DNA from: Flammeovirga pectinis
Lineage (GTDB): Bacteria > Bacteroidota > Bacteroidia > Cytophagales > Flammeovirgaceae
Direction: 5' to 3'
Assembly (NCBI RefSeq): GCF_003970675.1
Contig: NZ_CP034562.1
Coordinates: 3,162,001-3,226,000, forward strand
Length of the DNA stretch: 64,000 nucleotides
The notes beneath the pieces were generated by a model that saw only the letters and a list, made by a program, of their open reading frames with translations, was not told where the DNA came from and searched no databases. Shown here one piece after another: positions 31,442 to 49,422 of the stretch. The position numbers and the translations under genes were made by a program. Every line of letters starts with the position of its first letter. The first letter of the stretch is position 1.

Positions 31442-33082
31442 CTAAAATCTCACGTTAGCTGCTTTATAAGTTCCACCAATTTGCACACCTTGCATTTCAA
31501 GGTATTGCAATCTGTACAAGTAAGTTGCACCATTAAATAATGCATGCGCTACATCTACAGCTTTTCGGTTCTCCCATTGTTCTAATGGAGTACCTTTTAC
31601 CCACTCATTGAATGCACCCATTGCTGGTCCACACCAAATTTGGTAATCTAACTCTCTACCTTTAACACCTCTGTTTGCCCAAGAAGATGACAAACCTAAG
31701 TACCAACGGAAGATCAATGCCATCTTACGTTTTGGGTTGTTTTCCGATCTTGTAATTTGTTCTGGATCACGCTCTTGGAAGAAATCAATACACATTTTCC
31801 AGATGTTCTCTAACGTATCTTGGAAAATTGTTTTCTCTAAAGTTAAACGGTCCTTTGCAGGAAGCTCATCTATGCTATCGTACTTAATGTAGATATCGTA
31901 TAACTTCTGTGCTCTAAGTGCGAACAACGTTCCTTTTTTAAGTACTTGTAATTTCACGCCTAGTTCGAACATATCAGATGCTGGTGCCATCATAATATCT
32001 GTCATACCCGCTTGTGCTAACACCTTACGAGAATGATCTGATGCACCCGACTCTAAACATGCTTGGTTAATTGAACCTGTTACTACAAAAGCAGCACCCA
32101 TTGCAAATGCAGCTAAAACAGACTGAGGTGTTGAAATACCACCTGCAGCACCTACACGCACTTGTTCAGAGTAGTTCAATTCTTCTTGAATTCTATTTCT
32201 TAACAATAATACTGATGGTAATAAAGATACCAACGGTCTATTGTCTGTGTGTCCTCCAGAATCTGCTTCTACAGTAATATCATCTGCCATAGGAACAGAT
32301 AATGCTAAAGTTGCTTGCTCTTGAGTAATTGCTCCGTCTGCTACTAATTTATCTAAAATAGATTTAGGGGCAGGACGCATAAATTTCTCTGCTACTTCTA
32401 GACGAGAAACTTTAGCTATAATTCTATTTTCCATATGGATAGAACCGTCTGCATTCTTGCTTAACCCTGCCGCTCTGAACTTCACAACGAAAGGCGTTAA
32501 ATCCATAAATGCTGATGCTTCAATCACTTTTACACCACGTTTCAAAAATAAATCACAAGCTTCTCTTTCTAAAGCTACCTCGTTAGGAGAGTGAATTAAA
32601 TTAAAAGCGTAAGGTCCGTTAGGTAATGCAGCTTGAATCTTATCAATTGCTTGTTCTATGCGAGATGGAATTAACCCACCAGCACCAAAAGAACATAACA
32701 TACCTGCTTTTCCTAAAGCAATCACTAGGTCTTCCGAAGAAATACCGTTGGCCATTGCACCACCCATATAGTTATATTTCAGACCGTACGCTGCTTTAAA
32801 AGCTGGATCACCTAATTGTTCTGGAGCGTAGGCTGGAATGTTTGCTAAGGCTTCGCCTGATGTTAAATCTGCTGGAGATGATGTTCCCATTCCATCAGCA
32901 ACACCAATTGTACCTTCTACATTACGTACTACAAAAAGTTGCTTGTCTAATTTCTCAAACTGTACTTTAATTTCTGCAGCGTTATATTTTAATAAGCTTG
33001 ATGCACCAAACCATTTAGCGTTTGATGGTAAGCTTTGACTTTTTAAGCCGTTATTTTGATTCACGATTGTTGTGTTCATCAC
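31442..33082 (-). CDS. pfaD: PUFA synthase subunit PfaD, FMN-dependent enoyl reductase
   Basis: A 546-residue protein of the PfaD family, the trans-acting enoyl reductase of secondary lipid/PUFA synthases. It is an FMN-binding TIM barrel of the nitronate monooxygenase type: GGAMANGISSEDLVIALG near residue 110, CSFGAGGLIPSR, ADSGGHTDNRP and RVGAAGGISTPQS, with VVTGSINQACLESGASD for phosphate binding. The C-terminal helical part (WYLGLSSSWANRGVKGRELD, then WCGPAMGAFNEWVKG) is characteristic of PfaD. It is the last gene of the operon, 168 bp after pfaC, and supplies the 2,3-reduction for the megasynthase. Confidence 0.95.
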   Translation of the reverse strand: MMNTTIVNQNNGLKSQSLPSNAKWFGASSLLKYNAAEIKVQFEKLDKQLFVVRNVEGTIGVADGMGTSSPADLTSGEALANIPAYAPEQLGDPAFKAAYGLKYNYMGGAMANGISSEDLVIALGKAGMLCSFGAGGLIPSRIEQAIDKIQAALPNGPYAFNLIHSPNEVALEREACDLFLKRGVKVIEASAFMDLTPFVVKFRAAGLSKNADGSIHMENRIIAKVSRLEVAEKFMRPAPKSILDKLVADGAITQEQATLALSVPMADDITVEADSGGHTDNRPLVSLLPSVLLLRNRIQEELNYSEQVRVGAAGGISTPQSVLAAFAMGAAFVVTGSINQACLESGASDHSRKVLAQAGMTDIMMAPASDMFELGVKLQVLKKGTLFALRAQKLYDIYIKYDSIDELPAKDRLTLEKTIFQDTLENIWKMCIDFFQERDPEQITRSENNPKRKMALIFRWYLGLSSSWANRGVKGRELDYQIWCGPAMGAFNEWVKGTPLEQWENRKAVDVAHALFNGATYLYRLQYLEMQGVQIGGTYKAANVRF

Positions 33083-33107
33083 TATGTTAAAATAGTTCGT
33101 TGAAATG

Positions 33108-33131
33108 AGGAGCGCTATTGCTAACGCTCCT
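33108..33131. other. hairpin 1 in the pfaC-pfaD gap
   Basis: AGGAGCG pairs with CGCTCCT across a 10-nt loop. No T tract follows on the minus strand, so it is not a usual terminator. It may protect or set the processing of the pfa mRNA. Confidence 0.5.
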
Positions 33132-33160
33132 TCATCTCTGTGATGTGTGTATTTTTATAT

Positions 33161-33193
33161 GTTCCAGTGTTTTGCATAAGCATCACTTGGAAC
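33161..33193. other. hairpin 2 in the pfaC-pfaD gap
   Basis: GTTCCA-GTG pairs with CAC-T-TGGAAC (one bulged base) around a 14-nt loop. It again lacks a T tract on the transcribed strand. Confidence 0.5.
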
Positions 33194-33250
33194 TTTATTA
33201 TTGCAATCATAAGTAACACCTATCGGGTAAAACTTGTAATCGCTATATGA

Positions 33251-36200
33251 TTAACCAATTACTAAAGAAAGATCAGTTAATTCATAAATTCTTAATTCAC
33301 CTTTCCAAAGGTTAGCGTCTACAAGAATGACAACTTTGCCATTTTCGTTTTTCACTTCTTTGATATGGCATTCCAAGTTCATTGTTGGGTCACCTTGTAA
33401 AATTTGACCTCTGTACTTCCAAACTGTTTTGTTTGGTGCAAGATGGTTAAACCCTACGTTAGCTAAACCATTACCTAAACCTTGTTGTAAGGCATAAACT
33501 TGAACGGCTTGATGAATTGCCTCAACACCTAAAGAACCTGGCATAACAGGATCTTGGTAGAAGTGACAAGTAAAGAACCAATCGTAGTTATTGATAGCAC
33601 GTGTAGCATGGATATATCCTTTACCATACTTACCACCTTCTTTTATAATTGTAGCACTGTCTAACAAGTTCAACTGGTCTTCTGCCAAGTGCAATCTTGG
33701 TGAAGCTGGGTTTGTTGACTTAAACAACTTCATTTTACCAAATAATGAATCTAGGTTAAATGAAATGCTATTCTTTTTATCGTATTCGTTCGAATCTTTC
33801 CAAGTTGGCATCTTCCCTCCTGAATCTAAACCTGCTTGACTAGATAAGTCGGCTACAGTAAAGAACCCGAATGATGATTGACCTACGTAGAATACCGTAC
33901 CATCTACAGACAATTCGAAAGTATAACGTTGTAATACCGTACCTGCAAGGTTAGTATGCGACGTCATCACTACTTTGTTTGTGATTGTTTTTCCTTGAAG
34001 ATCAACATCCACTAACATCTCACCATCACCATCTAGGTTACGGAAGAATAAATCTTTATCAGGAACAGACAATGTAGAACCTAAGTAAGCACCTAAGAAA
34101 CCACATGGCTGTAATGCCACTTCCATCAATACCGAATAAGGCATTACAGGAGAAGCATTTTGCTTAAAGTACCAAGCATCTACAGGCACATCATACTCAG
34201 AGATGATTGTAGGCTTGTTTCTAAAATCATGTCTTTCGTTGCTGATAGACAATACTCTTGAAATTACTTGTAAGTCTGTATTAGGCTGACGAGATAAAGA
34301 ACGTCCGTCAAATACTTTGTACTCATCACCAAAACATTTAGAAACTGGTCCTAATGCAAACTGTGTGATGTCACCTTCATCTAATAAAACTTCTTTATTA
34401 ACAGGCTTCACGTATACACCGTGATTTGTGTTGGCTAAATCCTTCTTGTATTGAGGATTGTCTTTTTCTTGTAAACGAAGTCCTAAGTTTTCGAAGTATA
34501 CAGAAGATAAATCGTCATAGATAATTTCTAAATCAGCTACTACGTAAGGTTCAGGAACTAAACCTACTTCTTTCACATCCATACGGTAGATTAATTTACC
34601 GTCTTTTGCGTTTACTTCTTTACGACATCTTACTTTTTGAGGGATATCTAATACAGGTTGGAAACGAGCATCTTTAGTTAAACGCTGCATACCCATATAT
34701 AACATCAAGAAACGAAGCAACTGTCCGCCACCTTCTGCTTGTAAAGAACCTGCAAGCACTTCGTCATCTCTAAAGTGACATGGGAAGTACCAATCGTCTG
34801 CTTTTAAATCTTTTTCTGCTTCGATAAAACCAATTCCTGAAGAACCACCTTTAAGGTCTAATTCAGTAATTCTATCTAACATTAAGATATCTTTAGGAGG
34901 AAGACGTAAAGATCCGTTTCTACCTAAGTTATTGTAATCTGCACCAAATACACCTTCTAAATCACCATTCGTTAAAGCTAAAAGCTCTTCTTGGTTAAAA
35001 GTAGTTTGGTTACAGTGTAATAATGGCTCAAAGAATTGTTGCTTACGGTTGTTTCTTTCTTCAATTTCAGAAGGTTTGAATACTACTCCTTGTCCAACTG
35101 ATAAATCAGCTTCGTTAAAGAAACCAGCACAACCACCACGCATTTTCAATACCATTCTATCTTCTACGTAACAATCATAACGGAAGAAGAATAATAAGTT
35201 GTTACCATTACGTACATAGCTATCAATGCTAATGTCATAACGTAACGTTTGTCCTTCAAAAGGAAGATCATCCAAGAAAGTTAAAGTACAATCTAATAGA
35301 CGGTATTTGTACTCTCCTTTGTTTTGGAAATCAATTCCTAAATAAGAAATCAATAAAAGGTCACATTGTCCAGATTCTACGGCTACTGCCCAAGGAATTT
35401 GTCCGTCTGTTGCAAACCAAGAATTGTAAGGGATATCGTATTCAGTAGTTAAACTAGATGGCTTATACTCGTTTGTTTTAGCATCTAATTTTGTTACTCT
35501 ACTTACTAATAAGTAAGGAGGCATTGGTAGCATTACTCTACATGGGTACGTATCAATAATTGAGTATTCAGGTCCGAATACGTCAGCAATTTTACTAGTA
35601 GCAAATGTAAGTAGATCTTGCTCGTTCCAGATTGCATCTTTTTTAGAAGCTTTATAGTCTGGTGCATCAAAATCATAAAGAGCCAAGCCATTCTCAGCAA
35701 TTTTCTGAGAAACCTTCTTCTCAATAGTATCTAAAGTTGAATTCTTATCCATCTTATTTATTGTTTGTTCTTTTTCTACTGCCGCAAACATATCGTAGGC
35801 TTCTTCACCAGCAAAAGCAGGTGTTCTTTCTCCAATTCTGTTTGTTGCATTTTGGAAAGTCGCTTTGTTCTGTTCAGTTAAGGCAAATTCCTCAAAACGA
35901 GCTCCTCCAGTATGTAATCTCTTGTAAATTTTCTTTCTTTTGATTCCTCTCTCAGAAGTTTTTGTAATGTAAGCCGATAAATCAAGCGCTACACCTTCTC
36001 CTAGTAATTGAGCAATCATTGCAGTAAAGCTTTTCAACGAGTCAGAACCCTTACGGTCTGTAGCTATAGTTGTATGCTTTTGCTCTTTTAAGATCTCTCC
36101 AATCCATCTTGAACAAGTAGAGTTAGCCCCCACTTCTAAAAAGATATCATGACCATCTTCTTTCATCTTTCTGATTAGCTTCGGAAGGTTTACCTCTTGG

Positions 36201-39200
36201 CAACACACCTCTTTTGCATTTTCAGCAATTGCATCAACATCAATTTTCATTGGTGCCATAGTCACACCAGAATACACTGTTAAAGGCACTTCTTTTTGCA
36301 GTGGCAAATGATGCATTGTAATAAACTCATCCGATACTCTACGGATAAATTCATGATGCACAACATTATTAATTGTAAGTGTTACCGATGCTAAACCATG
36401 CTTTTGCATAATTTCTTCAAGGATATCATTATCACCCGAAAGAATAATTTCAGAATCCGTATTGATGAACGTTAGATAAACTCTTTCGTATTCACCTTCT
36501 ACTTCTTGTCTGTACCATTCTTCTAATGTTTGATACCCTAGCTTTTTAGCATTTGTAGTAATCAAACGGCTTCTCCAACGTGCTTTAGCTGTAGCAACAT
36601 CTAATCCCCATTCTTTACTCAGAATAGTCATATCACCGCCAACAACCTCACTAAAAATGTTAGACTCTAAGAATTTCTCATCTACTAAATGAGCATCCCA
36701 GAATTGTTGTCCGTACCACATTCCGCTAGTTTCACCCATGCTATACCCTGCCATTGCATCTGGCTTCATCTTCAAAATATCTTGAAGTAAATGTGTATAA
36801 GCAGCAGAGAAAGCACAACCAATTGCCATTACAGGAAGTGCGTTAGTACCAAGATTTTGCTCTTGTAACTTCACTTCTTCAGCAGATGGTGTTTTTAAAG
36901 TTCTTGGGTATAAATACTCCGTAAAGAACGCTCTGTTTGGATGGTTAACCGACTCCTTGATGTTATCATATAGGCTTGGGAACATCTGTAATAAAGAAGC
37001 ACCAAAACCTTGATAAGCACTACCAGAACCAGGATACATTAGGGCTACTTTTCCATTTTTGCCTAACGGCGATGGGTTATAGTAACTACCTGATGGCATT
37101 TGTAATACTACATTATTCTTGTAAGCCTCTTTCATGTGCTTTTGGAAGAATTCTACATCACGTAGTAAAACGTCCTCAGACTTGGCTACAAAAATGACTT
37201 TAATATCAGCAGCTTGATCAAATGTTTCGCATAGCTTGTCCGATGTCTCATTAAAACCAACTGTCTCAACATCTGTCAATACAGCCAATAATTGATGGTT
37301 TATTGCACCAGGACTAGTAATAGAAACAGGGAATAAACGCTCTCCTCCTTTTGCTAAGTAAGGGCTGCGCTCTTCTACCGTTGGATGAGAAGCTTCCGAC
37401 ATCAATACATGTGCAGAAGAACCATCACTTGCCAAACCACTAATTGCTGCACGTAAATCTTCTTTTCCTTCTTCTACAACCCAAGGCATAGATACATTTG
37501 GAACAAAGAAAGATGTACCTGCAAATTTATCTTCAGATTTAGGTCCTGTCCATTGTGGAGTTGCAGGAATAAATCTATGGTATAAAGCTAAAGCTGATCG
37601 AATAATAGAAGCAATACCAGATGCAGAGAATGTATGACCCACTGTAGATTTACTAGAACCTAAAGCCGTTGTCAATTTCCCATTTTCTGATTTATAAACC
37701 GAAGTTAAACCTTCGATCTCTGCTTGATCTTCTGATGTTACACCACTTGCAGAAACTTCTAATAAACCAATATCAGAAGCATCTAAATTATTATTTGATA
37801 GAATCTCTGTAGCACCTTTTTTAACAGCCTCTACAGTTACTTCACCTCTAATAGAAGAAACTTCGGATTGAATAATTGCGATGTCATCAATTTGTGCATA
37901 CACACGATCTTCTTTCGCGTCTTCTGCTCTTTTAATAACAATTGCACCAGCACCTTCACCAACATTCCAACCGTTTGTTTCAGTGTTCCATCCTAAAGAA
38001 ACATCACCTGTATTTACTGGGTTTTGCACATGACGGCTCAATACACCTTCCATGCTACCTGCTAAATCAATAGCACCCAATACAACTGCATCTACTTCTC
38101 CTAGAGCCAACATATTTCTTGCAACATCTAATGCTTTATATACAGCATTTTCATTAGAAGAAATTGTAAACGATGGTCCTGTAAAATCCCAAAGTGATGA
38201 AATACGGCTAGAGATAATGTTACCAATAAAGCCTGTATGTTCAGATGGAGAATGGTCTTCGAATGCCTCAAAAACAGTATTTTTCAACACGTCAGAAAGT
38301 GATGCTTGTTTCTCAACATCCATTTCTAAACCTGCCATCTTCAGTGCTTCTTCTACTTGCCAGATAAGATCCCATCTCCCCATACGGTGATGTATTTCTA
38401 ATTCTGATTCCATAGCAGTAAGTACCGCAATGTTGGCTCCTTTTCCTTGTGCTCCTGTCAAACCAGCATCGTGCAATGCTCTATCTGCAACAGTTAGCAT
38501 CAACGTTTGTTGTAACGTTAAGCGTTCGGCTTCTTTTGGCTGGATTTTAAAGCGTAAGATATCTAAATCAAACTCTTCTAACCATGCCCCTTGAATACCT
38601 TTTATATCTTCTAAACCTAAACCTTTCTTCAACGTTTCCAATTCTTCCATTCCCTTCCAACGGTTAGCCGGAAGTCCTTTAAAGAATTGCTCTCCTTGGT
38701 ATAAAGCCAAATAGAAATCTTCTACTGTAGCACAACCTCCAAAATGAAGATCCATACCAACAATAGACATTGGTTGTTTAGGCGAACTAATTTTTTCTTT
38801 TTCTACTTTTTCTTCTGCATTGTAAGCAGATAAAATCATGTGTGCATTTGTACCACCAAAACCAAAAGCGTTAATTCCTGCATGAGGACGCTCTCCTTTT
38901 TGTGGCCAAGCAGAATTTTCCAACATGATCTGCTCTTTTCCTACTTTTTGATCTGTAGAATGAACAGCTCCTTCAATCTTAATTGTTGCTGGAATAAACT
39001 TCTTTTGCATGGCTATGATCACCTTTAACATTCCCGTCATTCCGGCAGCTGTTAAAAGGTGTCCCATATTAGATTTCACCGACCCCAAGAAAGGAGGTCT
39101 AACGGTATCTTGAGCAAAGAAATTACTAATAGAGTTAATTTCTGTAGTATCTCCTAGCGGAGTACCTGTTGCATGACATTCTAGGTAATCAATTTCTGCT

Positions 39201-40180
39201 GGCGTTAAGTTCGTTCCTTCGTAAGCTCTTTCAAAAGCTAACTTCTGCCCTTTTGGGTTTGGACTTAATAAGAATTTTCCTTTACCATCATTTGATAAAC
39301 CTACACCATCTACAACTGCTAAAATCTTATCTCCATCACGTTGTGCATCGCTTAAGCGTTTTAACACCACCATACCTGCACCTTCAGAAGAAATCAAACC
39401 ACCAGAAGTATTATCTAATGGCGCTGACTTTTCGTTCATTCTTGCATAAGCGTGGAAATAAGAAAAGCCCATCTGAATAAACAAAGGATCAGCACCACTT
39501 ACGGCACCTGCTAACATCATGTCAGCTTTTCCTAATTGTAATTCGTCAATGGCTAATTTAATTGCATATAAACTAGAAGCACAAGCCGCATCCAAAGAAT
39601 AGTTTGTTGACGATAATCCTGTTGCTTGAGCAATTAATGCTGAAGGAGAATTAGTCAATAACGTTTCATGAATGTTGGCTTCGTATGCTGTATTTGCAAA
39701 AGGAATTTGAATACTTTCTCCCGTTAATTCTGTAATCACAGTGCTAGCCATATCTGCATAGATAGGTGCTAATACTTGGCGTGATCTTCTTGTAGGGAAT
39801 GACAAGTTACCCACAATAACACCACAATTTTTTCCTTGTGTGTTTTGCCAGTAACCACTGTCTTTTAATGCTTGTTGTGCTACATACAACGACCACTTAA
39901 ATTGATCGTCTTGTTTTGTTAGTAAGTTGGCATCCAATTTATATCCAGAAGGATCAAATTGAAAATCTCGAACATATCCACCTCTTAATGCATAACACTT
40001 ATCTAGTTTCCCTTTTTCTTTATTATAAAGACGTTCTGGAGATTGTCCAAACGTTTCATCATCAGAAAGAGTAACTAGATCTTTATTATCCAGTAGATTA
40101 TTCCAGAATGTATCTAATGAGTCTGATCCTGGGAATAAACCTCCCATTCCTATGACTGCTATTTTATCTTTTTTGCTCAT
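33251..40180 (-). CDS. pfaC: PUFA synthase subunit PfaC with internal AT (KS-CLF-AT-DH-DH)
   Basis: A 2309-residue megasynthase subunit. Ketosynthase: residues 1-455, nucleophile C200 (DAACASSL) with the His motifs CHATGTPLGD and NMGHLLTAAG. Chain-length-factor-like KS: about 470-930, where the Cys position reads SSNENAV and the first His is lost. Acyltransferase of PfaB type: about 1065-1450, PGSGSAY and S1147 in GYSMGETSG. Two double-hotdog FabA-type dehydratases: about 1590-1960 (CHFRDDEVLAGSLQAEG) and 1980-2309 (CHFYQDPVMPGSLGVEA). In gammaproteobacteria the AT is a separate PfaB; the fused order seen here is that of myxobacterial Pfa3, without its terminal AGPAT. Second gene of the operon. 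Confidence 0.95.
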   Translation of the reverse strand: MSKKDKIAVIGMGGLFPGSDSLDTFWNNLLDNKDLVTLSDDETFGQSPERLYNKEKGKLDKCYALRGGYVRDFQFDPSGYKLDANLLTKQDDQFKWSLYVAQQALKDSGYWQNTQGKNCGVIVGNLSFPTRRSRQVLAPIYADMASTVITELTGESIQIPFANTAYEANIHETLLTNSPSALIAQATGLSSTNYSLDAACASSLYAIKLAIDELQLGKADMMLAGAVSGADPLFIQMGFSYFHAYARMNEKSAPLDNTSGGLISSEGAGMVVLKRLSDAQRDGDKILAVVDGVGLSNDGKGKFLLSPNPKGQKLAFERAYEGTNLTPAEIDYLECHATGTPLGDTTEINSISNFFAQDTVRPPFLGSVKSNMGHLLTAAGMTGMLKVIIAMQKKFIPATIKIEGAVHSTDQKVGKEQIMLENSAWPQKGERPHAGINAFGFGGTNAHMILSAYNAEEKVEKEKISSPKQPMSIVGMDLHFGGCATVEDFYLALYQGEQFFKGLPANRWKGMEELETLKKGLGLEDIKGIQGAWLEEFDLDILRFKIQPKEAERLTLQQTLMLTVADRALHDAGLTGAQGKGANIAVLTAMESELEIHHRMGRWDLIWQVEEALKMAGLEMDVEKQASLSDVLKNTVFEAFEDHSPSEHTGFIGNIISSRISSLWDFTGPSFTISSNENAVYKALDVARNMLALGEVDAVVLGAIDLAGSMEGVLSRHVQNPVNTGDVSLGWNTETNGWNVGEGAGAIVIKRAEDAKEDRVYAQIDDIAIIQSEVSSIRGEVTVEAVKKGATEILSNNNLDASDIGLLEVSASGVTSEDQAEIEGLTSVYKSENGKLTTALGSSKSTVGHTFSASGIASIIRSALALYHRFIPATPQWTGPKSEDKFAGTSFFVPNVSMPWVVEEGKEDLRAAISGLASDGSSAHVLMSEASHPTVEERSPYLAKGGERLFPVSITSPGAINHQLLAVLTDVETVGFNETSDKLCETFDQAADIKVIFVAKSEDVLLRDVEFFQKHMKEAYKNNVVLQMPSGSYYNPSPLGKNGKVALMYPGSGSAYQGFGASLLQMFPSLYDNIKESVNHPNRAFFTEYLYPRTLKTPSAEEVKLQEQNLGTNALPVMAIGCAFSAAYTHLLQDILKMKPDAMAGYSMGETSGMWYGQQFWDAHLVDEKFLESNIFSEVVGGDMTILSKEWGLDVATAKARWRSRLITTNAKKLGYQTLEEWYRQEVEGEYERVYLTFINTDSEIILSGDNDILEEIMQKHGLASVTLTINNVVHHEFIRRVSDEFITMHHLPLQKEVPLTVYSGVTMAPMKIDVDAIAENAKEVCCQEVNLPKLIRKMKEDGHDIFLEVGANSTCSRWIGEILKEQKHTTIATDRKGSDSLKSFTAMIAQLLGEGVALDLSAYITKTSERGIKRKKIYKRLHTGGARFEEFALTEQNKATFQNATNRIGERTPAFAGEEAYDMFAAVEKEQTINKMDKNSTLDTIEKKVSQKIAENGLALYDFDAPDYKASKKDAIWNEQDLLTFATSKIADVFGPEYSIIDTYPCRVMLPMPPYLLVSRVTKLDAKTNEYKPSSLTTEYDIPYNSWFATDGQIPWAVAVESGQCDLLLISYLGIDFQNKGEYKYRLLDCTLTFLDDLPFEGQTLRYDISIDSYVRNGNNLLFFFRYDCYVEDRMVLKMRGGCAGFFNEADLSVGQGVVFKPSEIEERNNRKQQFFEPLLHCNQTTFNQEELLALTNGDLEGVFGADYNNLGRNGSLRLPPKDILMLDRITELDLKGGSSGIGFIEAEKDLKADDWYFPCHFRDDEVLAGSLQAEGGGQLLRFLMLYMGMQRLTKDARFQPVLDIPQKVRCRKEVNAKDGKLIYRMDVKEVGLVPEPYVVADLEIIYDDLSSVYFENLGLRLQEKDNPQYKKDLANTNHGVYVKPVNKEVLLDEGDITQFALGPVSKCFGDEYKVFDGRSLSRQPNTDLQVISRVLSISNERHDFRNKPTIISEYDVPVDAWYFKQNASPVMPYSVLMEVALQPCGFLGAYLGSTLSVPDKDLFFRNLDGDGEMLVDVDLQGKTITNKVVMTSHTNLAGTVLQRYTFELSVDGTVFYVGQSSFGFFTVADLSSQAGLDSGGKMPTWKDSNEYDKKNSISFNLDSLFGKMKLFKSTNPASPRLHLAEDQLNLLDSATIIKEGGKYGKGYIHATRAINNYDWFFTCHFYQDPVMPGSLGVEAIHQAVQVYALQQGLGNGLANVGFNHLAPNKTVWKYRGQILQGDPTMNLECHIKEVKNENGKVVILVDANLWKGELRIYELTDLSLVIG

Positions 40181-40194
40181 TGCATATCTTATTT

Positions 40195-40239
40195 TTCATC
40201 AATGGGGACGTAGCTAACTACGTCCCCTATTTTGATGAA
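40195..40239. other. strong hairpin between pfaA and pfaC
   Basis: Inner stem of ten perfect pairs (GGGGACGTAG with CTACGTCCCC, loop CTAA) and an outer stem TTCATCAA/TTGATGAA. It begins about 5 nt after the pfaA stop and has no T tract, so readthrough into pfaC is expected. Confidence 0.75.
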
Positions 40240-40244
40240 TGTGG

Positions 40245-43200
40245 TTATGACCAAGTTAGCTCACGACTGATTGTCATTGCTGCGCCATAACTTTTCATAT
40301 AAACTTTTCCAGTTTCTGCATCATAGGCTGTGATATCAGAAACCATTGAGAAGTCATCTGCTTTTTTTACTTCGATTTGAACGTAGAACGGCTTTCCAAA
40401 AGGAAGAGCATCGAAGATCTCTACATATTCAGTACTTAAAGGTAAACTTGCTGCACCATGGAAACGACGTACCCAAACGACTGCTCCTTGATACATAATG
40501 TCCATCAAGTAAGGATTTACCTTTTTAACAGGTACCTGTCCCTGACGTTCTTCTGTTACCCCATTGTGCTCACATAAGAACACCATGCTTTTTTCGTTCA
40601 TCTCTAGAATCGATTTGATTCCGTTAAAGTCTGAACCATGAAACAATGTTCCATCTGTATATACTGAAGAAGCATCTGCTACCGCTGGCGTTGCATTTGT
40701 ATTAGGCAATGCAACCACTGGAGCTTCAACTCCTTTAGAAGTTAAAGTGATTTGTGTTTGATAATGGTTCAAGGGAAGTTTTCCACCATTGTCGCTAGAA
40801 ACATTCACTGTCATAGTTACAGTATCTTCTGATTTTGATGTCTCTTTAACTGTAATAGTGTAATCTTCCGCTTGTTTACCATCAAATACGATTCCTTTAA
40901 AAAGTTTCGCATTATCAACTCGTTGGATGTTAAAGCCTGGATATAAATCCGTTGCCGTCTGAACCATCCAAGTAGATGCATTTACGATTGGAAGCACTGC
41001 GTTTCCTTGAATCATATGATGTTGTAAGAAAGGATTTTTCTCCTCCGTCATATTTCTCTTTACCGTATATGTCTTTAAATCACCTGAGATATCTGCTTTT
41101 GCTAATGGTAAAGTACCACCTAGAATTACTTGAGGCTGATCTGCAAAGGCATCACTTAATTGATCTACCATTGCTACTGGTCCTTCTTCAGAAGGAACTA
41201 ATGCAACACCGTAAGCTTCGAACATTTTCTTTAACTCACCACTTACCATTCCTGCGTCCCATGCTCCCCAGTTAATAGAGGCGATATGAACATCTGGATG
41301 GTTCTTCTTAAATAAATGAGCTACTCTGTTCAATACTTCATTGGCCATTGCATAATCTGATTGACCAACATTACCATAGAAACCTGCTACAGAAGAGAAC
41401 AACACTACGTGTTTGATATCATGAATACTACCTGCTGCTACTGCGGCCAATAGTCCTGAAATCTTTACATCATATACATTATCGAAGTCTGTTGCTGTTT
41501 TATTTTCGATTAACTTATCTGCTAATCTACCTGCACCATGAATAATACCAGTAATCTTACCTGCTTGTGCTACTATTGGTTCAACTGCTGCTTTTAATGC
41601 TTCTGCATTAGTAACATCAGCTGCTGTGTAATAAGCTTTTGCTCCTACACTTTCGATATACTCTAAGTTCTCTTGGATTTCTCTTTGAGAAAGTACCGCA
41701 CCTACCATTTTATTTATTGCCTTTGGAAGTGGTTTCTCTCCAGCTTCTTTTAAGGCCATCATTGCACTACGTTTAAGTGCTGGCTCGTCTGCCACACCTT
41801 GTGCCCATGCAGGTTCTGAATCTGTTAATGCCGATCTACCAACCAAAATAAATTTCGATTTGTATGTCTTCGCCATTGCTCGAACACAATCTGCTGTTAC
41901 ACCTTTTGCACCACCTGTTACCAAGAAAACGCTTTCTGAAGTGATACTAGAAGTTCTTACCGTTCCTGCTTTATGAGGTTCTACAACCGCTTGAAGCGTA
42001 AAACGTTTTCCTTCGTCATTGTAAGCTGTTTCTGTTGTAGTAACATCTGCATCTTTCAATTCAGCAATTACTTTCTTTGCAGCTACATCTGCTTTCAATT
42101 GAGGCGACAAGTCAAGTGCTCTACAGAACACGTTTGTCCATTCTAAGTTCATTGATTTTGTAAGACCAAATAAGCCTCCACCAATCACTGAAACATTTCC
42201 TGGGTTTTTGATACCAAATGCTCCTTCTAAACGAGTTACTGTCATGAAAGAAGCTCTTGTAGTTTTAGCCGCGTAATCGTTTAATGACGACTTCAAGTGT
42301 TTTGCTAACAAATACGCTGATTTCAATAATTCTTTTTCTTTATCGAAATGCATACCCCATTGTCCTAAAGGAAAACGGAAGTGAGGATGAACATAAATAA
42401 ACTGATCAACTCCTCCGATTTGTGCTAAAGCACTTTTAATTGCATCATCAGAAACATCTGATAATTGAAGCTCTTTTGCTCCTTGAGGTAAAGTTACTGC
42501 CGCTTGGCGAACCAAACTTGATGGCATTGTCAATACCGCTACATTTCTGCCTTCAGCCAATAATTCTTGTGCTAAAGAAACAGATAATCCCGAGCCATCA
42601 TTCGTAATGACTGTCCATGCATTTGCATCGTTATCGATCACCAATTGATCTGGCTCGGGAATATATTTTAATTGAACAGAAGAACGAGGTACACGGTCAT
42701 AGTTTCCTGAAACAAATGATGTTTGATCTTCTGCAATTACTTCTTCTAACTGCTTAGTAGACTTTTTTTTTTCAAGTCCCGTAGAACTTGTAGTTGCGCC
42801 TGCTTTACCTGAGATATACTCAGCAATCTGGGCGAGCGTTCGCAGTTCTGCAAGTTCTTGTGGATCTACTCCTTGAACGGATGGATTAGCTTCTGTCATT
42901 GCACCGAAGATTTCTACTCTTTTTATTGAGTCGATACCTAAATCTGCTTCCATGTCCATTTCCATTTCCAACATTTCTGAAGGGTAACCTGTCTTCTCTG
43001 CAATCACTACTAATAATGATGCTTCGATTTCTGCGTTAGTTACGCCACCTGCTGCTGGTGCTTCTGCTACAGGTGCCGCCGCTGCTACTGGAGCTGCTGC
43101 TGCAGGTGCTGATGTTGCTCCCGCTTTTCCTGAAATATATTCAGCTATCTGAGCTAATGTTCTTAATTCAGCTAACTCTTGTGGATCTACTCCTTGAACG

Positions 43201-46200
43201 GATGGATTAGCTTCTGTCATTGCACCGAAGATCTCTACTCTTTTAATTGAGTCAATACCTAAGTCTGCTTCCATGTCCATTTCCATTTCCAACATTTCTG
43301 ATGGGTAACCCGTCTTCTCTGCAATCACTACTAATAATGATGCTTCGATTTCTGCGTTAGTTACACCACCTGCCGCTGGAGCTGGTGTTGCTGCTACAGG
43401 TGCCGCCGCTGCTACTGGAGCTGCTGCTGCAGGTGCTGATGTTGCTCCCGCTTTTCCTGAAATATATTCTGCTATTTGAGCTAATGTTCTTAACTCAGCT
43501 AATTCTTGTGGATCTACTCCTTGAACGGATGGATTGGCTTCCGTCATTGCACCGAAGATCTCTACTCTTTTAATTGAGTCGATACCTAAATCTGCTTCCA
43601 TATCCATTTCCATTTCCAACATTTCTGATGGGTAACCCGTCTTCTCTGCAATCACTACTAATAATGATGCTTCGATTTCTGCGTTAGTTACGCCACCCGC
43701 TGCTGGTGTTACTGCTACTGGAGCAGGAGTTGGTGTTACAGGTGCCACCGCTACTGGAGCTGGTGCTGATGTTGCGCCTGCTTTTCCTGAAATATATTCT
43801 GCTATTTGAGCTAATGTTCTTAACTCAGCTAATTCTTGTGGATCTACTCCTTGAACGGATGGATTGGCTTCCGTCATTGCACCGAAGATCTCTACTCTTT
43901 TTATTGAGTCGATACCTAAGTCTGCTTCCATGTCCATTTCCATTTCCAACATTTCTGATGGGTAACCCGTCTTCTCTGCAATCACTACTAATAATGATGC
44001 TTCGATTTCTGCATTTGTTACGCCACCCGCTGCTGGTGTTGCTGCTACTGGAGCAGGAGTTGGTGTTACAGGTGCCGCCGCTACTGGAGCAGGTGCTGCT
44101 GCCGGTGCTGATGTTGCTCCCGCTTTTCCTGAAATATATTCTGCTATTTGAGCTAATGTTCTTAACTCAGCTAATTCTTGTGGATCTACTCCTTGAACGG
44201 ATGGATTTGCTTCCGTCATCGCACCGAAGATCTCTACTCTTTTAATTGAGTCGATACCTAAGTCTGCTTCCATGTCCATTTCCATTTCCAACATTTCTGA
44301 TGGGTAACCCGTCTTCTCTGCAATCACTACTAATAATGATGCTTCGATTTCTGCGTTAGTTACACCACCTGCCGCTGGAGCTGGTGTTGCTGCTACAGGT
44401 GCTGGAGTTGGCGTTACAGGTGCTGCTGCTACTGGAGCAGGAGCTACTGGTGTTTCAACTGATGCTGCAATTTGTTGTTGAACTGGAGCCGCTGTCGATC
44501 CCAATTGATTATTTGTTTGCATGTTGAACAACGATGACAACATTTGCTCAATACGAGATTGTTGTTCTGTTAAACGTTGAATATCCGCTTGGATTTGATC
44601 CAATACTGCCTTCTCTGCCATGGAAGCTGAATTTTGTTTCTGACGTAATTTTTCTTCAATGACCTGAGACATATCTGTTGTCTCAGCAATCACTGTTTCA
44701 ATTTCTTCTACTAATGGTGCTTTTTTAGCAAGCACTTTTCCACCTTTTTCTAAGATGTCTTGGTATCTCTTCTTAAATGCAGGAGTCAAGTAGTTTGTAC
44801 CTGAAATCTGAACATTCATTTTCGATTTTGCACCTGCTACTTGTACTGGACGAGCATAAGGATCAAAATTTTGAAGAGCGATACCCATCACTGCAAGTTG
44901 TACTGCAGCTTCTCTCAACTGTACTTCTGAGTTTTTCTTAGCATTTGCATTTAAAGACACCACTTGATGATCTTTTCCTGCTAAGATTTCAGACGTTAAG
45001 TTTGAAAGGATATTTTTTGGTCCAAATTCTACAAAGACTCTAGCACCCTCTTGGTACATTTTTTCAATTTGGTCTTTAAATAGAACTGGGCTTAAGATAT
45101 GACGCTTTAAAGTCTCCTTGATAAACTGAGGTTGTGCTGGGTAAGCAGTACCTAGTGTATTAGAATACAATTTACCTTTAGGAGCAACAATGTTTGCATT
45201 GTCAATTACTGCTGCAAAAGGTTTAGAAGCATGTCCTACAAATGGTGTATGGAATGCTGCTGATACAGGTAAAATTGTTGCCAATAAACCTGCTGCTTTT
45301 AATTCCGCTTTCAACGCTGTTAATTCATTAACTGCTCCACCCAAAATAACTTGAGTACCAGAGTTAATGTTAGCAACTTGAACATTTTTGTATTTACCAA
45401 TGTAAGGTTGTACTGCAACTACATCAGCTTTAACAGCCATCATAGTACCTGCATCAACACCTGCTTGAGCAGACATTGCCTGACCTCTTTCTTTCGATAA
45501 TTGTAAGAAAGTTGTTAAATCAATTGCTCCAGAAGCATAAAGCGCAGAAAGTTCACCGTAAGAGTGTCCTGCAAAGAATGAAGCGTTAAAACCTGCATTC
45601 TTTAAGATATGATACATACCAATACTCAATGCACCAATTGCTGGCTGAGCATTTTCTGTAGCTGTAAGTGTTGCTTGTTGTTGTTTACGCTCTTCGTCAG
45701 AGAATACTGGAATAGGGTAAACTGTTTCGGTTAAAGGTGATTTGTTTGCCGCTTCGAAAGTTTCGTTTGCTTTAACAAATACATCACGTACATCTGGGAA
45801 TGACCATGCTACTTCATTACCCATGTTTACGTATTGAGAACCCTGACCAGCAAATAATGCTGCTACATTGTCCTTACCATTATAAGCAGTGCTTCTATAC
45901 CAAACGTTTAAGATTGGGTTTTTCCACTCTGCTACATTTGCATCTTTAGAAATTCCGGCAACAAAAGCTTCAAGTTTTTTCAATGTATCTTCAATAGAAG
46001 AAGCTACAAAACCAACTCTTGGCTGACCTAAAGGAACATTTTCTGCAAATGAAGTTGCTGATACTTCTTTGTAATATGCCTTAGCACTATCACCTTTCAG
46101 ACCTGCAATATGTTTTTGAACCAAAGCAACTAATGCAGATGAAGTAACATCAGTCAATAACCATTGCTTGTGGATATTATGTACTCTATATTGAGATTTA

Positions 46201-47627
46201 GGAGTTGGCTTATACTCCTCTAAAGAAAAGTGTAAGTTTACACCACCAAAACCAAAGGCAGATACACCCGCTCTTAATGGCGTAGCTGAATCTTTTTGGA
46301 ACCAAGGACGTGTCTCATTATTAATATATAATGGAGATGTCTCGATTTGCACTTTAGGGTTTGGTTTGGTTACGTTAATCGTACCCGGTAATATTTTATG
46401 GTGAAGCGATAAAGCTGCTTTAATCATACCTGCTGCACCTGCTGCTGCTTTTGTATGACCAATTTGCGATTTCACTGAACCTAATGCAATATGATTTAAA
46501 CGGTCAGAGTTTTTACCAAAAACCATTTTCATTGATTCACCTTCAGAAGCATCTCCTGCACCAGTACCTGTACCGTGTGCTTCGATTAAACCAACTGTTG
46601 ATGCATCGTAACCCGCTTCTTCATATGCTCTATTCATTGCTAATGCTTGTCCTGAAGGACGAGGAGCATAAACAGATTTATAACGACCATCTGATGAACC
46701 ACCAATACCATTAATAACAGCATAGATTTTATCACCATCACGTTCAGCATCTTCTAAACGTTTCATGACCATCATACCAACACCTTCACCAATCAACATA
46801 CCGTCTGATTCGTGATCGAAAGGACGAATACTTCCTTTACGAGAGAATGCCGGAGTTTTTGAGAATGACATGTACATAAATGGAGAGTTGTCTGTATCAA
46901 CACCACCAGTTACCATCATATCAGCACGTTTTTCTATCAATTCAGAAACAGCCATTTTAATTGCTGATAAAGAAGCTGCACAAGCTGCATCTACTACTGA
47001 GTTAATACCTCCAAAGTCGAAACGGTTAGCAATACGACCTGAAATTACGTTACCTAACAAACCAGGGAAAGAGTTTTCTGTCCAAGGCACAAATGCAGCT
47101 TTCATTTTCTCGATAGCTGTAACAATTTGTTCCTCTGGCATACCCATTGACTCTAACGCTCTTCTCCAAATTGGATACTGTAAACGAGCTGTTAAAGGAA
47201 TGATCAACTTCTGTCCACCACCTACACCAAGGATTACCCCTGTTCTTTCTTTAACTTCTGATTTTAATTCTTCAGAACCTGGAGCATAACCTGCATCTGT
47301 TAATGCATCTTTTGCTACTGCTAAACCTAATAGTTGAGAAGCATCTGTTACCTCAAGGATATTTGGCGGTAAACCAAATTCCATTGGGTTAAAATCAATT
47401 TTTGGAATAAACCCACCCACTTTACAGTATGTTTTATCTTCTGCAAATGGATCTGGATCATAGTAATCAGAAATTTTCCAGCGATCATCTGGAACTTCCT
47501 TAATACAGTCAACACCTTGAATGATGTTTTCCCAATATTTCTCGAGGTTCTCAGAATCCGCAAAACAAGAAGCCATACCAACGATGGCAACAGGCGTTTT
47601 CTTGAGTAGTTGGTTTGTATCTTTCAT
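40245..47627 (-). CDS. pfaA: PUFA synthase subunit PfaA (KS-AT-5xACP-KR-DH)
   Basis: A 2460-residue megasynthase that starts and carries the growing chain. KS: residues 1-480, nucleophile C216 (DAACAASL), EAHGTGTGAGD and GHTKAAAGAAG. Malonyl-CoA AT: about 590-900, S689 in GHSYGELSA. Five ACPs, phosphopantetheine serines at about 1127, 1241, 1351, 1460 and 1567 (LGIDSIKRVE in each), joined by Ala/Pro linkers. Ketoreductase: about 1890-2150, VTGGAKGVTAD and SDYAMAN, preceded by a structural subdomain. C-terminal PKS-like dehydratase: about 2195-2455, HMIQGNAVLP. First gene of the operon. No phosphopantetheinyl transferase is encoded nearby. Confidence 0.96.
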   Translation of the reverse strand: MKDTNQLLKKTPVAIVGMASCFADSENLEKYWENIIQGVDCIKEVPDDRWKISDYYDPDPFAEDKTYCKVGGFIPKIDFNPMEFGLPPNILEVTDASQLLGLAVAKDALTDAGYAPGSEELKSEVKERTGVILGVGGGQKLIIPLTARLQYPIWRRALESMGMPEEQIVTAIEKMKAAFVPWTENSFPGLLGNVISGRIANRFDFGGINSVVDAACAASLSAIKMAVSELIEKRADMMVTGGVDTDNSPFMYMSFSKTPAFSRKGSIRPFDHESDGMLIGEGVGMMVMKRLEDAERDGDKIYAVINGIGGSSDGRYKSVYAPRPSGQALAMNRAYEEAGYDASTVGLIEAHGTGTGAGDASEGESMKMVFGKNSDRLNHIALGSVKSQIGHTKAAAGAAGMIKAALSLHHKILPGTINVTKPNPKVQIETSPLYINNETRPWFQKDSATPLRAGVSAFGFGGVNLHFSLEEYKPTPKSQYRVHNIHKQWLLTDVTSSALVALVQKHIAGLKGDSAKAYYKEVSATSFAENVPLGQPRVGFVASSIEDTLKKLEAFVAGISKDANVAEWKNPILNVWYRSTAYNGKDNVAALFAGQGSQYVNMGNEVAWSFPDVRDVFVKANETFEAANKSPLTETVYPIPVFSDEERKQQQATLTATENAQPAIGALSIGMYHILKNAGFNASFFAGHSYGELSALYASGAIDLTTFLQLSKERGQAMSAQAGVDAGTMMAVKADVVAVQPYIGKYKNVQVANINSGTQVILGGAVNELTALKAELKAAGLLATILPVSAAFHTPFVGHASKPFAAVIDNANIVAPKGKLYSNTLGTAYPAQPQFIKETLKRHILSPVLFKDQIEKMYQEGARVFVEFGPKNILSNLTSEILAGKDHQVVSLNANAKKNSEVQLREAAVQLAVMGIALQNFDPYARPVQVAGAKSKMNVQISGTNYLTPAFKKRYQDILEKGGKVLAKKAPLVEEIETVIAETTDMSQVIEEKLRQKQNSASMAEKAVLDQIQADIQRLTEQQSRIEQMLSSLFNMQTNNQLGSTAAPVQQQIAASVETPVAPAPVAAAPVTPTPAPVAATPAPAAGGVTNAEIEASLLVVIAEKTGYPSEMLEMEMDMEADLGIDSIKRVEIFGAMTEANPSVQGVDPQELAELRTLAQIAEYISGKAGATSAPAAAPAPVAAAPVTPTPAPVAATPAAGGVTNAEIEASLLVVIAEKTGYPSEMLEMEMDMEADLGIDSIKRVEIFGAMTEANPSVQGVDPQELAELRTLAQIAEYISGKAGATSAPAPVAVAPVTPTPAPVAVTPAAGGVTNAEIEASLLVVIAEKTGYPSEMLEMEMDMEADLGIDSIKRVEIFGAMTEANPSVQGVDPQELAELRTLAQIAEYISGKAGATSAPAAAAPVAAAAPVAATPAPAAGGVTNAEIEASLLVVIAEKTGYPSEMLEMEMDMEADLGIDSIKRVEIFGAMTEANPSVQGVDPQELAELRTLAQIAEYISGKAGATSAPAAAAPVAAAAPVAEAPAAGGVTNAEIEASLLVVIAEKTGYPSEMLEMEMDMEADLGIDSIKRVEIFGAMTEANPSVQGVDPQELAELRTLAQIAEYISGKAGATTSSTGLEKKKSTKQLEEVIAEDQTSFVSGNYDRVPRSSVQLKYIPEPDQLVIDNDANAWTVITNDGSGLSVSLAQELLAEGRNVAVLTMPSSLVRQAAVTLPQGAKELQLSDVSDDAIKSALAQIGGVDQFIYVHPHFRFPLGQWGMHFDKEKELLKSAYLLAKHLKSSLNDYAAKTTRASFMTVTRLEGAFGIKNPGNVSVIGGGLFGLTKSMNLEWTNVFCRALDLSPQLKADVAAKKVIAELKDADVTTTETAYNDEGKRFTLQAVVEPHKAGTVRTSSITSESVFLVTGGAKGVTADCVRAMAKTYKSKFILVGRSALTDSEPAWAQGVADEPALKRSAMMALKEAGEKPLPKAINKMVGAVLSQREIQENLEYIESVGAKAYYTAADVTNAEALKAAVEPIVAQAGKITGIIHGAGRLADKLIENKTATDFDNVYDVKISGLLAAVAAGSIHDIKHVVLFSSVAGFYGNVGQSDYAMANEVLNRVAHLFKKNHPDVHIASINWGAWDAGMVSGELKKMFEAYGVALVPSEEGPVAMVDQLSDAFADQPQVILGGTLPLAKADISGDLKTYTVKRNMTEEKNPFLQHHMIQGNAVLPIVNASTWMVQTATDLYPGFNIQRVDNAKLFKGIVFDGKQAEDYTITVKETSKSEDTVTMTVNVSSDNGGKLPLNHYQTQITLTSKGVEAPVVALPNTNATPAVADASSVYTDGTLFHGSDFNGIKSILEMNEKSMVFLCEHNGVTEERQGQVPVKKVNPYLMDIMYQGAVVWVRRFHGAASLPLSTEYVEIFDALPFGKPFYVQIEVKKADDFSMVSDITAYDAETGKVYMKSYGAAMTISRELTWS
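42795..44375 (-). repeat. five tandem ACP-coding repeats in pfaA
   Basis: Five units with serine codons at 42927, 43248, 43575, 43905 and 44247 (spacings 321, 327, 330 and 342 bp). The folded domains are identical in protein sequence; DNA differences are almost all silent. Length variation lies in the Ala/Pro linkers. The unit nearest 42800 is the most diverged at DNA level. Confidence 0.95.
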
Positions 47628-48298
47628 ATCTCTTATTCTTAGAATAGTACAATTAAAGAATCATACTATCCATTATCTTTTCTTAGTTACATGAAAACAG
47701 GTCTTGCACGTTCGTTTGTGTTTCCACTTTTTCAGTCTGCAAACCATCAGTTTTCAGCACATATAACAGGAGTCGTCTTTGAATTGTGACAGTTTTTCTA
47801 AAAAAAATCAACGTTAACTTTTATTGATTAATGAGATAGTATTCACTCATCTATTAAAATAATACAACTACTTTACAAAAGTATATTCATTGCAATAGTG
47901 ATCGTTCATTCATACTATTTTTCATCTAAAAAATTATTTTAAAAAAAAGTTGAAAAAAAAATCAAGTTTTGTCACAAACTGCATAGACATTATAAAAAAT
48001 AGAGACTTTTAGGTCCAATATTTAAAATAAAAACATTTAGTAGTACCCAAAAGCAAGGCTCATAACAATATTCATTACATCAATTTGAGTGGTTTTAAAA
48101 GTGAATCAAAAAGCTATTTTACAGAAGTGTTACTACACAAATAACACTACTTTAATACACTAATATTCTTTTTTAAATGATACGTTATAAATATGAAGTT
48201 GAGTGATATTTTCAATTAAAATCACTCAAAAAGCAAAACAAAATAAGGTGACAAACAATTATCGATGTATAAAAAAGGACTTTTAACCCAACAATCTT
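47628..48298. other. intergenic region, divergent promoters of pfaA and the photolyase-like gene
   Basis: A 671-bp gap, the longest in the window. It must hold the pfa operon promoter, but no exact TAnnTTTG element was found on the minus strand. Two opposed TTGTGACA motifs (47784-47791 plus, 47970-47977 minus) and several A/T tracts are visible. No ORF or RNA is supported. Confidence 0.45.
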
Positions 48299-49399
48299 AT
48301 GCATCATTTTTCTACAAAATACGCTGATATATTAGACCAAATAGATCAATTTTCACCTTTAAAATACGGCGGATCTAGAAATTATATAGATGGAGGTGTT
48401 TCTTATTTATCTCCGTACATCTCTAGAGGTGTTATTTCTACTCGACAGGTTTTAGATCACTTAATGCGAAAGGGTTATGATTTTTATAAATCTGAAAAAT
48501 TTATCCAAGAATTAGCATGGAGAGACTATTGGCAGCAAATATGGATTGACCAGAAAGAGCATATTGATTTTGATTTAAAGCACCCACAACCTGATGTAGA
48601 TCATTATAAATTACCAAAAGCACTCTCTGATGCTGAAACTGGAATTGAAGCTATTGATAAAGGAATAAATGTATTAGAAGAATCGGGTTACATGCACAAT
48701 CATATGAGAATGTATGTAGCAATGCTCTCTTGTAATGTTGGAAAAGCACATTGGTTATTACCTGCAAAATGGATGTATTATCATTTACTAGATGCCGATT
48801 GGGCAAGTAATGCTTTAAGTTGGCAATGGGTAGCTGGTGCAAACAGTAATAAGAAGTACATTGCAAATCAAGCCAATATAAATAAATACTGCCATTCTAC
48901 GCAAGAGGATACTTTTCTAGATATTACTTATCAAGATTTTGAAAAAATAAATACACCTAAACACTTATTAAACTGTGTTCCTTTCACTTTAACAACAGAA
49001 TTACCTAAAACAAACCCCTTAACTATAGATGAATCCATTCCTACTTTTATTTACAATAGTTATCAGTTAGATCCAACATGGAACAGTACTTTACAAGGAA
49101 ACAGAATACTCCTATTAGAACCTTCTCACTTTAATAAATATCCTATTAGTAATAAGTCGCTTAAATTTATTATTGACTTGAGTGAAAATATAGATAATAT
49201 TCAGCTGTTTGTGGGAGAATTTACTGATCTACAAAAACAATTAGGGGCTTCTACTATTTATTATAAAGAACATCCTACAACATCACACTATCATGGAAAT
49301 AGAGAAGAAAGAGATTGGATATCTGATGTTAAAGGAAATTATTCTTCATTTTTTAAATTTTGGAAAAAAGTTAAGAAAGAAATTTATGTAGTTCAGTAA
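48299..49399 (+). CDS. photolyase/cryptochrome-like protein with FAD domain first
   Basis: A 366-residue flavoprotein. Residues 1-215 match the helical FAD-binding domain of DNA photolyases: YLSPYISRGVIS, FIQELAWRDYWQQ, TGIEAIDKGINVLEESGYMHNHMRM and DADWASNALSWQWVAG. In ordinary photolyases an alpha/beta antenna domain comes first. Here the FAD domain starts at residue 1 and an alpha/beta segment follows it (about 230-366: RILLLEPSHFNKYP, then IQLFVGEFTDLQ), which suggests a permuted order. It may repair pyrimidine dimers or act as a light sensor. It is cotranscribed with a flavin reductase and a DUF2256 gene. Confidence 0.8.
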   Translation: MHHFSTKYADILDQIDQFSPLKYGGSRNYIDGGVSYLSPYISRGVISTRQVLDHLMRKGYDFYKSEKFIQELAWRDYWQQIWIDQKEHIDFDLKHPQPDVDHYKLPKALSDAETGIEAIDKGINVLEESGYMHNHMRMYVAMLSCNVGKAHWLLPAKWMYYHLLDADWASNALSWQWVAGANSNKKYIANQANINKYCHSTQEDTFLDITYQDFEKINTPKHLLNCVPFTLTTELPKTNPLTIDESIPTFIYNSYQLDPTWNSTLQGNRILLLEPSHFNKYPISNKSLKFIIDLSENIDNIQLFVGEFTDLQKQLGASTIYYKEHPTTSHYHGNREERDWISDVKGNYSSFFKFWKKVKKEIYVVQ

Positions 49400-49422
49400 A
49401 CTTATATAACCCATCTAAATTT

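Follow-up and report, generated by a model that had tools for sequence, protein, structure and literature searches.

The gene cluster described here is best set beside the PUFA synthases of Type D, on which Ujihara et al. (2014) have reportedly worked. Type D is represented by Psychroflexus torquis, Ulvibacter, and Aureispira marina (Shulse & Allen 2011); it is one of the cluster types (C, D, H, and I) for which a pfaBC fusion was published in 2011, and its pfaA is named there as two genes, pfaA1 and pfaA2 (PMC3098273). The Type D fusion cluster yields arachidonate in Aureispira (PMC4882568), and Flammeovirga pacifica is listed among the Bacteroidetes that mainly make arachidonate (PMC13311796). 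Type C (Desulfatibacillum alkenivorans) has the pfaBC fusion with pfaD at the 3' end (PMC3098273). In the gammaproteobacteria Shewanella and Moritella, PfaB is a separate protein that lacks a PGQ motif and has GYSMG, with a Tyr just ahead of the catalytic Ser, and conserved Ser and His; that Tyr is crucial in Moritella PfaB (PMC12895367). In the myxobacterium Aetherobacter the AT lies mid-way in Pfa3, the counterpart of PfaC, which also has an AGPAT domain, and pfaD is upstream (PMC4882568).

The window, by which we mean the whole stretch of 64,000 nucleotides of Flammeovirga pectinis that was analysed, carries a three-gene cluster at 31442-47627. Its content is as an earlier note on this DNA had read it, namely PfaA [KS-AT-5xACP-KR-DH], PfaC [KS-CLF-AT-DH-DH], and PfaD: the open reading frames stand as described there, and the domains are recovered by profile. 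The features, with ORF coordinates for the three genes, are as follows.

40245..47627, minus strand: pfaA, 2460 aa; KS, AT, five ACPs, KR, and PKS-type DH
47615-46203, minus strand: KS of pfaA
45875-44913, minus strand: AT of pfaA
44369-42792, minus strand: the five ACPs of pfaA
42710-41223, minus strand: KR of pfaA
41120-40263, minus strand: PKS-type DH of pfaA
33251..40180, minus strand: pfaC (pfaBC), 2309 aa; KS with C200, CLF with E677, PfaB-type AT, and DH regions with H1802 and H2206
35891..37075, minus strand: PfaB-type acyltransferase inside PfaC, with Y1146-S1147 and H1275
31442..33082, minus strand: pfaD, enoyl reductase, 546 aa; GTG start, with ATG as the second codon

With Pfam and NCBIfam profiles, PfaA gives matches for KS (C216), AT (S689 in GHSYG), five ACPs, and KR, and a weak one for the PKS-type DH (24.5 bits, under the 27-bit cut-off). 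PfaC gives two KS, an AT, and three FabA stretches; the second KS is a CLF, since E677 replaces the C200 of the first. Custom domain models find four hot-dog segments in PfaC, which may be read as two double hot-dogs. The identification as a PUFA synthase, also made earlier, is supported, with PfaA at 2463 bits against TIGR02813 (cut-off 1010) and PfaD at 674 bits against TIGR02814 (cut-off 449). PfaA, PfaC, and PfaD thus make a complete set of KS, AT, tandem ACP, KR, CLF, FabA-type DH, and an ER of the TIM-barrel family. Full-length PfaC is present in one copy in the window's own genome and in 9/9 genomes of the genus, at 85-100% identity; the closest matches among those listed are from five named Flammeovirga (85-86%). 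Two PPTase matches lie elsewhere in the genome, one roughly 0.5 Mb and the other roughly 1.2 Mb away. One of these (L006) has FNISH and NGKP, fitting the P1b and P1a motifs that are tied to PUFA-type PPTases (PMC3098273), with a P0 motif that is imperfect by eye.

The five ACP repeats (42792-44369) share an 86-residue core that is identical as protein, with 5 to 29 silent differences per 258 nt between copies, a sign of strong purifying or concerted evolution. In other Flammeovirga the ACP number reads as 3 to 7, where drafts may collapse repeats. The divergent neighbours of pfaA (48299-50061, plus strand) encode two proteins, one FAD-binding and of photolyase type, the other flavin reductase-like, and an Erythromycin-esterase-family protein is encoded at 26316-27527 on the minus strand.

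In such a synthase PfaA would load malonate and the chain would be carried on the five ACPs; the KS/CLF pairs would lengthen it, KR, DH, and PfaD would reduce and isomerise it, and the PfaB-type AT of PfaC would deal with the finished acyl chain. The cluster is taken to be a Type D-like pfaA-pfaBC-pfaD synthase for a C20 polyene, most likely arachidonate. We say "Type D-like" because pfaA is unsplit, with the ACPs and the KR in one frame in 9/9 Flammeovirga genomes.

The AT of PfaC, with S1147 in GYSMGETSG, does lie between the CLF and the DH regions, as the domain and residue positions confirm. It scores 25.2 bits against the general AT profile, under the 32.7 cut-off. Against TIGR02816, the PfaB profile, it matches at 9.2e-30 but its 103.9 bits stay below the curated cut-off of 144.3. 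The best PDB match is PfaBs (9ry8, 2.8e-23), the next being at 1.8e-4. Among 75 aligned sequences, the window's included, the Tyr before the active Ser is present in 71/75 and the Ser and the His in 75/75 each. In the AT tree the PfaC AT joins PfaBs and the separate AT gene of L076, and eight PfaA ATs stand apart (support 100); the PfaBs stretch from PDB is the sole gammaproteobacterial reference there, and its place is unsure because of its long branch (2.59). These observations support a PfaB-like AT in PfaC. It has the motif, Tyr, Ser, and His of the gammaproteobacterial PfaB, and likewise no PGQ motif; it differs in being fused into PfaC and in falling under the PfaB cut-off.

The earlier note had seen in this an intermediate arrangement in the evolution of the megasynthases, a view that is not supported. 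Beside the fusion types published in 2011, 69 of the 70 frames with KS/CLF and DH in our survey, whose loci are mainly the best 78 of 405 PfaC matches and which is biased to AT-bearing PfaC by its PfaC query and by one of six search peptides lying inside the AT, also carry the AT. These 69 span Bacteroidota, SAR324, Chloroflexi, and two Streptomyces plasmid clusters, again among loci that are mainly the best 78 of 405. One Streptomyces cluster (L106) has the order of the window, pfaA-pfaBC-pfaD. Trees of PfaC and of the AT were built on sets without gammaproteobacterial PfaA or PfaC and without myxobacterial sequences; the former nests Flammeovirga within Bacteroidota, and the latter groups the PfaC AT with PfaBs. 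The published types, the survey, the Streptomyces order, and the PfaC tree are the grounds for rejecting the intermediate. The AT in PfaC is thus an ordinary finding, already known, because the fusion has been published and is widespread in the survey.

The exception among the 70 frames is L076 (9725-11923), of the Desulfobacterales, with the order pfaA-B-C-D, a separate PfaB-type AT gene, and an 8-ACP PfaA. The Streptomyces plasmid cluster L106 adjoins genes for isochorismatase, anthranilate synthase, and chorismate mutase, perhaps an aryl-lipid pathway.

The linker between the ACPs and the KR of pfaA contains a run of ten A, which the earlier note does not mention, and with it a candidate slip site. 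The features are these.

42754..42773, minus strand: slip site and -1 stop, GAAAAAAAAAAGTCTACTAA
42763-42772, minus strand: run of ten A (A10), inside pfaA, in the ACP-KR linker
42762-42768, minus strand: in-phase heptamer A_AAA_AAG
42756-42754, minus strand: -1 stop TAA; the -1 frame reads KKKVY and then stops

Slippage to -1 here would give a product of 1624 residues, KS-AT-ACP5, and frame 0 continues to 2460 aa. The 20-mer GAAAAAAAAAAGTCTACTAA occurs once per genome in 9/9 Flammeovirga, with exactly A10 in all nine, and the linker on either side varies by substitutions and indels. Identity over six codons at the slip site among the nine, found in 2/104 windows, is suggestive only. The 12-mer GAAAAAAAAAAG has a single occurrence in the whole 6.68-Mb genome, the GC content of the window being 32%; a reversed-pattern control was uninformative, as this pattern is its own reverse. 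Apart from this run, the window has a single A/T run of nine or more, at 47953-47961, in the gap ahead of pfaA.

Most relatives have PfaA in two frames, KS-AT-ACPn and KR-DH. Among the scored rows of this first set, with loci mainly the best 78 of 405, 10 are fused and 39 split; in 39/39 split loci the second frame lies at -1 relative to the first, and an in-phase X_XXA_AAZ heptamer is present within every frame overlap. These states leave out three loci at contig edges (L025, L030, L042) and one with two KR frames (L072), and the 39 leave out L070 and L071, both with broken PfaC frames. L070 fits the pattern (-1, AAAAAAC); L071 has AAAAAAG with its second frame off by +1 and, as it stands, does not fit.

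Among drawn genomes, the KR-DH part was found in 30/52 of the SAR324 phylum, 27/297 of the Desulfobacterota, and 15/301 of the Chloroflexota. At 1e-60 it was found in 1/395 Bacteroidota genomes, and this draw added no new junction because the sole match was the window's own genome. In total 62 split ACP/KR junctions were collected, and six duplicates were dropped before counting. The 56 distinct junctions are from Bacteroidota (32), the SAR324 phylum (23), and Streptomyces (1); those within one lineage are related, not independent, and the Streptomyces one (L107) is weak, sitting in a 1351-nt overlap of GC-rich frames. All 56 have an in-phase X_XXA_AAZ heptamer inside the overlap, ahead of the stop, and all 56 have the second half in the -1 frame. 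The motif is an A run of 9 to 11 in 46 junctions, AAAAAAG on a shorter run (6 or 7) in five, GGGAAAG in four, and CCCAAAA in one. In 25/56 the overlap spans no more than 25 nt, and in those 25 the switch therefore has little room elsewhere.

PfaD is above cut-off in 15/291 drawn Cytophagales genomes, nine of them Flammeovirga. One of the six others has a cluster whose junction letters match those of Spirosoma L011 (split, AAAAAAG), and three have AT-ER genes as in trans-AT PKS. The Cytophagales loci L192 and L199 have a PfaD-family ER gene with no PfaA or PfaC in the fetched stretch (about 16 kb upstream in L192, <5 kb in L199).

Within 60 nt of the other stops of the clusters, heptamers of this class occur in 5/56 for PfaA or PfaA2, 0/76 for PfaC, and 5/50 for PfaD, and in internal windows of about 60 nt in 159/2855 (5.6%) and 519/7265 (7.1%). 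In Desulfobacterota the ACPs and KR share one frame in 27/28 loci; of four linkers examined closely, three are without the heptamer and one (L141) has GGGAAAC. No X_XXA_AAZ heptamer was found in the ACP-KR linkers of the fused L106, L139 (= L076), L140, and L142, and the fused L109 of the SAR324 phylum has no A run and only CCCAAAT. A weak heptamer can thus occur by chance, as L109 and L141 illustrate. It is important to remember that the frame offset alone is no proof of slippage, and we rejected it as such, since ATGA-type overlaps produce the same offset.

The sequence evidence of domains, frames, heptamers, scarce start codons, and conservation makes it probable, in our view, that the "split" pfaA of Bacteroidota and of the SAR324 phylum is one gene read by -1 slippage, with both products made. 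A fraction of ribosomes would slip by -1 at the slippery heptamer in the ACP-KR linker, and where the A run is at least nine, slippage of RNA polymerase may assist or do the whole job. One gene would then give two proteins, the short KS-AT-ACPn and the long KS-AT-ACPn-KR-DH. Frame 0 would make the short form and -1 the long one in most of the rows studied; Flammeovirga, one of the Persicobacter, and part of the SAR324-phylum genomes would have these roles reversed. KS dimer and ACP arrays would be common to both forms, which might have a role in setting the number of ACPs per KR, or the output.

How far the ribosome is needed is a fair question, and it is possible, although we lean the other way, that transcriptional slippage at the A9-A11 run makes both products instead of ribosomal frameshifting, as in the dnaX of Thermus thermophilus, where A9 suffices (PMC1088944). 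The run is of at least nine A in 46/56 split junctions and A10 in the window, where -1 and +1 alike reach a stop within a few codons. In E. coli, with stimulators supplied, AAAAAAG (the heptamer of the window), GGGAAAG, and CCCAAAG rank near the top of the -1 motifs in efficiency (PMC4066793). Only 12/56 junctions have AAAAAAG or GGGAAAG in phase; the last in-phase heptamer of the other 44 is AAAAAAA (29), AAAAAAC (12), AAAAAAT (2), or CCCAAAA (1), motifs that are less efficient, or untested, outside an A run, and most of these junctions would depend on a longer run of A. The window site has no predicted RNA structure downstream (z +0.78), so slippage there may be weak or transcriptional. Over the whole set, however, such structure is enriched: in the 75 nt downstream the mean z is -1.30 (n=56) vs -0.19 in controls (n=112; p 2.7e-6), and z is below -2 in 12/56 junctions vs 3/112 controls. 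Five Flavobacteriaceae, a small set, have a common predicted structure of 26 pairs, four of them with changes on both sides. Stimulators usually lie 5-8 nt downstream, and at other sites the hairpins, on our reading of the folds, often start some 20-45 nt downstream. Also against a transcriptional origin, 10/56 sites keep the heptamer intact with A runs of only 3 to 7, and the GGGAAAG sites should be unsuited to polymerase slippage. These four sites, with the five that have A runs of 6 or 7, speak against polymerase slippage, or homopolymer error, as the general cause. Ribosomal and transcriptional slippage may each be in use, with different lineages relying on different ones.

An older reading is that the PfaA of Type D is two true genes, the second with its own start or coupled to the first, that the A-rich run is a functionless lysine linker, and that Flammeovirga merely has the two joined. 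We consider this improbable, even though the genes were published as pfaA1 and pfaA2 (PMC3098273) and those of A. marina have been expressed as AmpfaA to E (PMC5067506), and even though a start codon of some kind, in most cases GTG or TTG, precedes the KR in 13/56 second frames. A second-frame ATG within 12 nt of the stop is found in 0/56 junctions, and any start codon in 3/56. The comparison is with seven Chloroflexota loci (L169-L175) in which PfaA is split inside the KR, with an ATG overlapping or adjoining the stop in 7/7 and heptamers in 0/7; the split there is a normal gene boundary. The first ATG after the slip precedes the KR in 4/56, and 27/56 have their earliest ATG, GTG, or TTG 20 codons or more inside the KR; PfaC, for comparison, has an in-frame ATG before its KS in 45/52 loci (the window is among the 52, unscored). 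Nor does a lysine linker explain in-phase heptamers at every junction, four of them being GGGAAAG, with no lysine run. A point against the slippage reading is that substitutions just past the slip lean to third positions only mildly (74, 43, 40; 62 nonsynonymous and 44 synonymous codons).

Since long runs of A readily undergo slipped-strand change, and fused and split states both exist, the run could also be a phase-variable contingency tract that turns PfaA on and off through changes in DNA length. This is very unlikely: the run is A10 in all nine Flammeovirga, GGGAAAG sites swap frame without any run, and the state tracks the KR tree, on which, by a quick method and with several long branches, there are five changes between the two slip states and six for each against all scored rows, with 0/500 shuffles as low. 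That homopolymer errors in the sequencing of draft genomes produced the apparent splits is scarcely credible, for although many loci are from metagenome assemblies and L071 looks error-ridden, all 56 share both the -1 direction and the location, and GGGAAAG is found in both L086, a record called complete, and L010, an independent contig.

An exchange of frames is seen within Persicobacter. At the same GGGAAAG, strain JZB09 (L087) keeps frame 0 open and meets a stop one codon into -1, and P. psychrovividus (L086), like L010, has the stop in frame 0 and the -1 frame open. The SAR324-phylum loci L125, L131, and L132 resemble the Flammeovirga arrangement. Overall, the -1 stop comes within two codons in 5/7 frame-0-fused rows (P 0.013, taking the highest background rate), and only after 18 and 11 codons in L052 and L116, which are less like Flammeovirga. 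A simple re-fusion of a truly split PfaA was considered and dropped on the frame and heptamer evidence. The Persicobacter clusters of L086 and L087 are on replicons of 1.07 and 1.58 Mb that are recorded as plasmids.

Among the open-licence papers listed, no title, term count, or abstract opening points to frameshifting in pfaA or a PUFA synthase; in the part of the Atkins review that was covered, the words "polyketide," "fatty acid," "acyl carrier," and "Bacteroidetes" do not occur, and the terms checked in the GeneTack survey gave one polyketide cyclase and one fucose synthase but no Pfa. When the PfaA of A. marina was swapped for the fused PfaA of Shewanella, ARA in E. coli rose 48-fold (PMC5067506), which fits the recoding reading and is no proof of it.

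A broader reading, for and against which we would give equal weight, is that the recoding in Bacteroidota and the SAR324 phylum is dnaX-like: selection would hold the ratio of short, KR-less PfaA to the full-length one so tightly that the slip site outlived several swaps of frame, the split into pfaA1 and pfaA2 in Type D would be an annotation artefact, and a mixed PfaA complex would set output or product. Should the slippage reading hold, the published domain map of the Type D synthases, those for arachidonate, is in error where the ACPs meet the KR, and pfaA and its KR part, when expressed as separate genes, as seems to have been the case for A. marina, would lack the native long subunit. 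The conserved roles that recoding plays in bacterial cells would also come to include a lipid megasynthase. Persicobacter, with its frames swapped at the same heptamer, offers a natural experiment on whether the long protein alone or the ratio is selected.

Among known systems, myxobacterial Pfa3 and Type C were set beside the window by description only. Pfa3 has the AT mid-way in the PfaC counterpart as here, and is unlike the window in its upstream pfaD and its AGPAT domain; Type C shares the pfaBC fusion and the 3' pfaD. Type D shares the PfaA domains, the KS-CLF-AT-DH2 pfaBC fusion, and the phylum, and differs in that its published pfaA is split, whereas the Flammeovirga PfaA is a single open frame. 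In dnaX (tau/gamma) of E. coli the mechanism is a ribosomal -1 frameshift. The window, L087, L125, L131, and L132 have in common with dnaX a slippery site within the gene, a frame 0 of full length, and a slip that would give a short form ending at once; dnaX differs in that it is not a biosynthetic megasynthase, and in that most pfaA rows would make the short form in frame 0.
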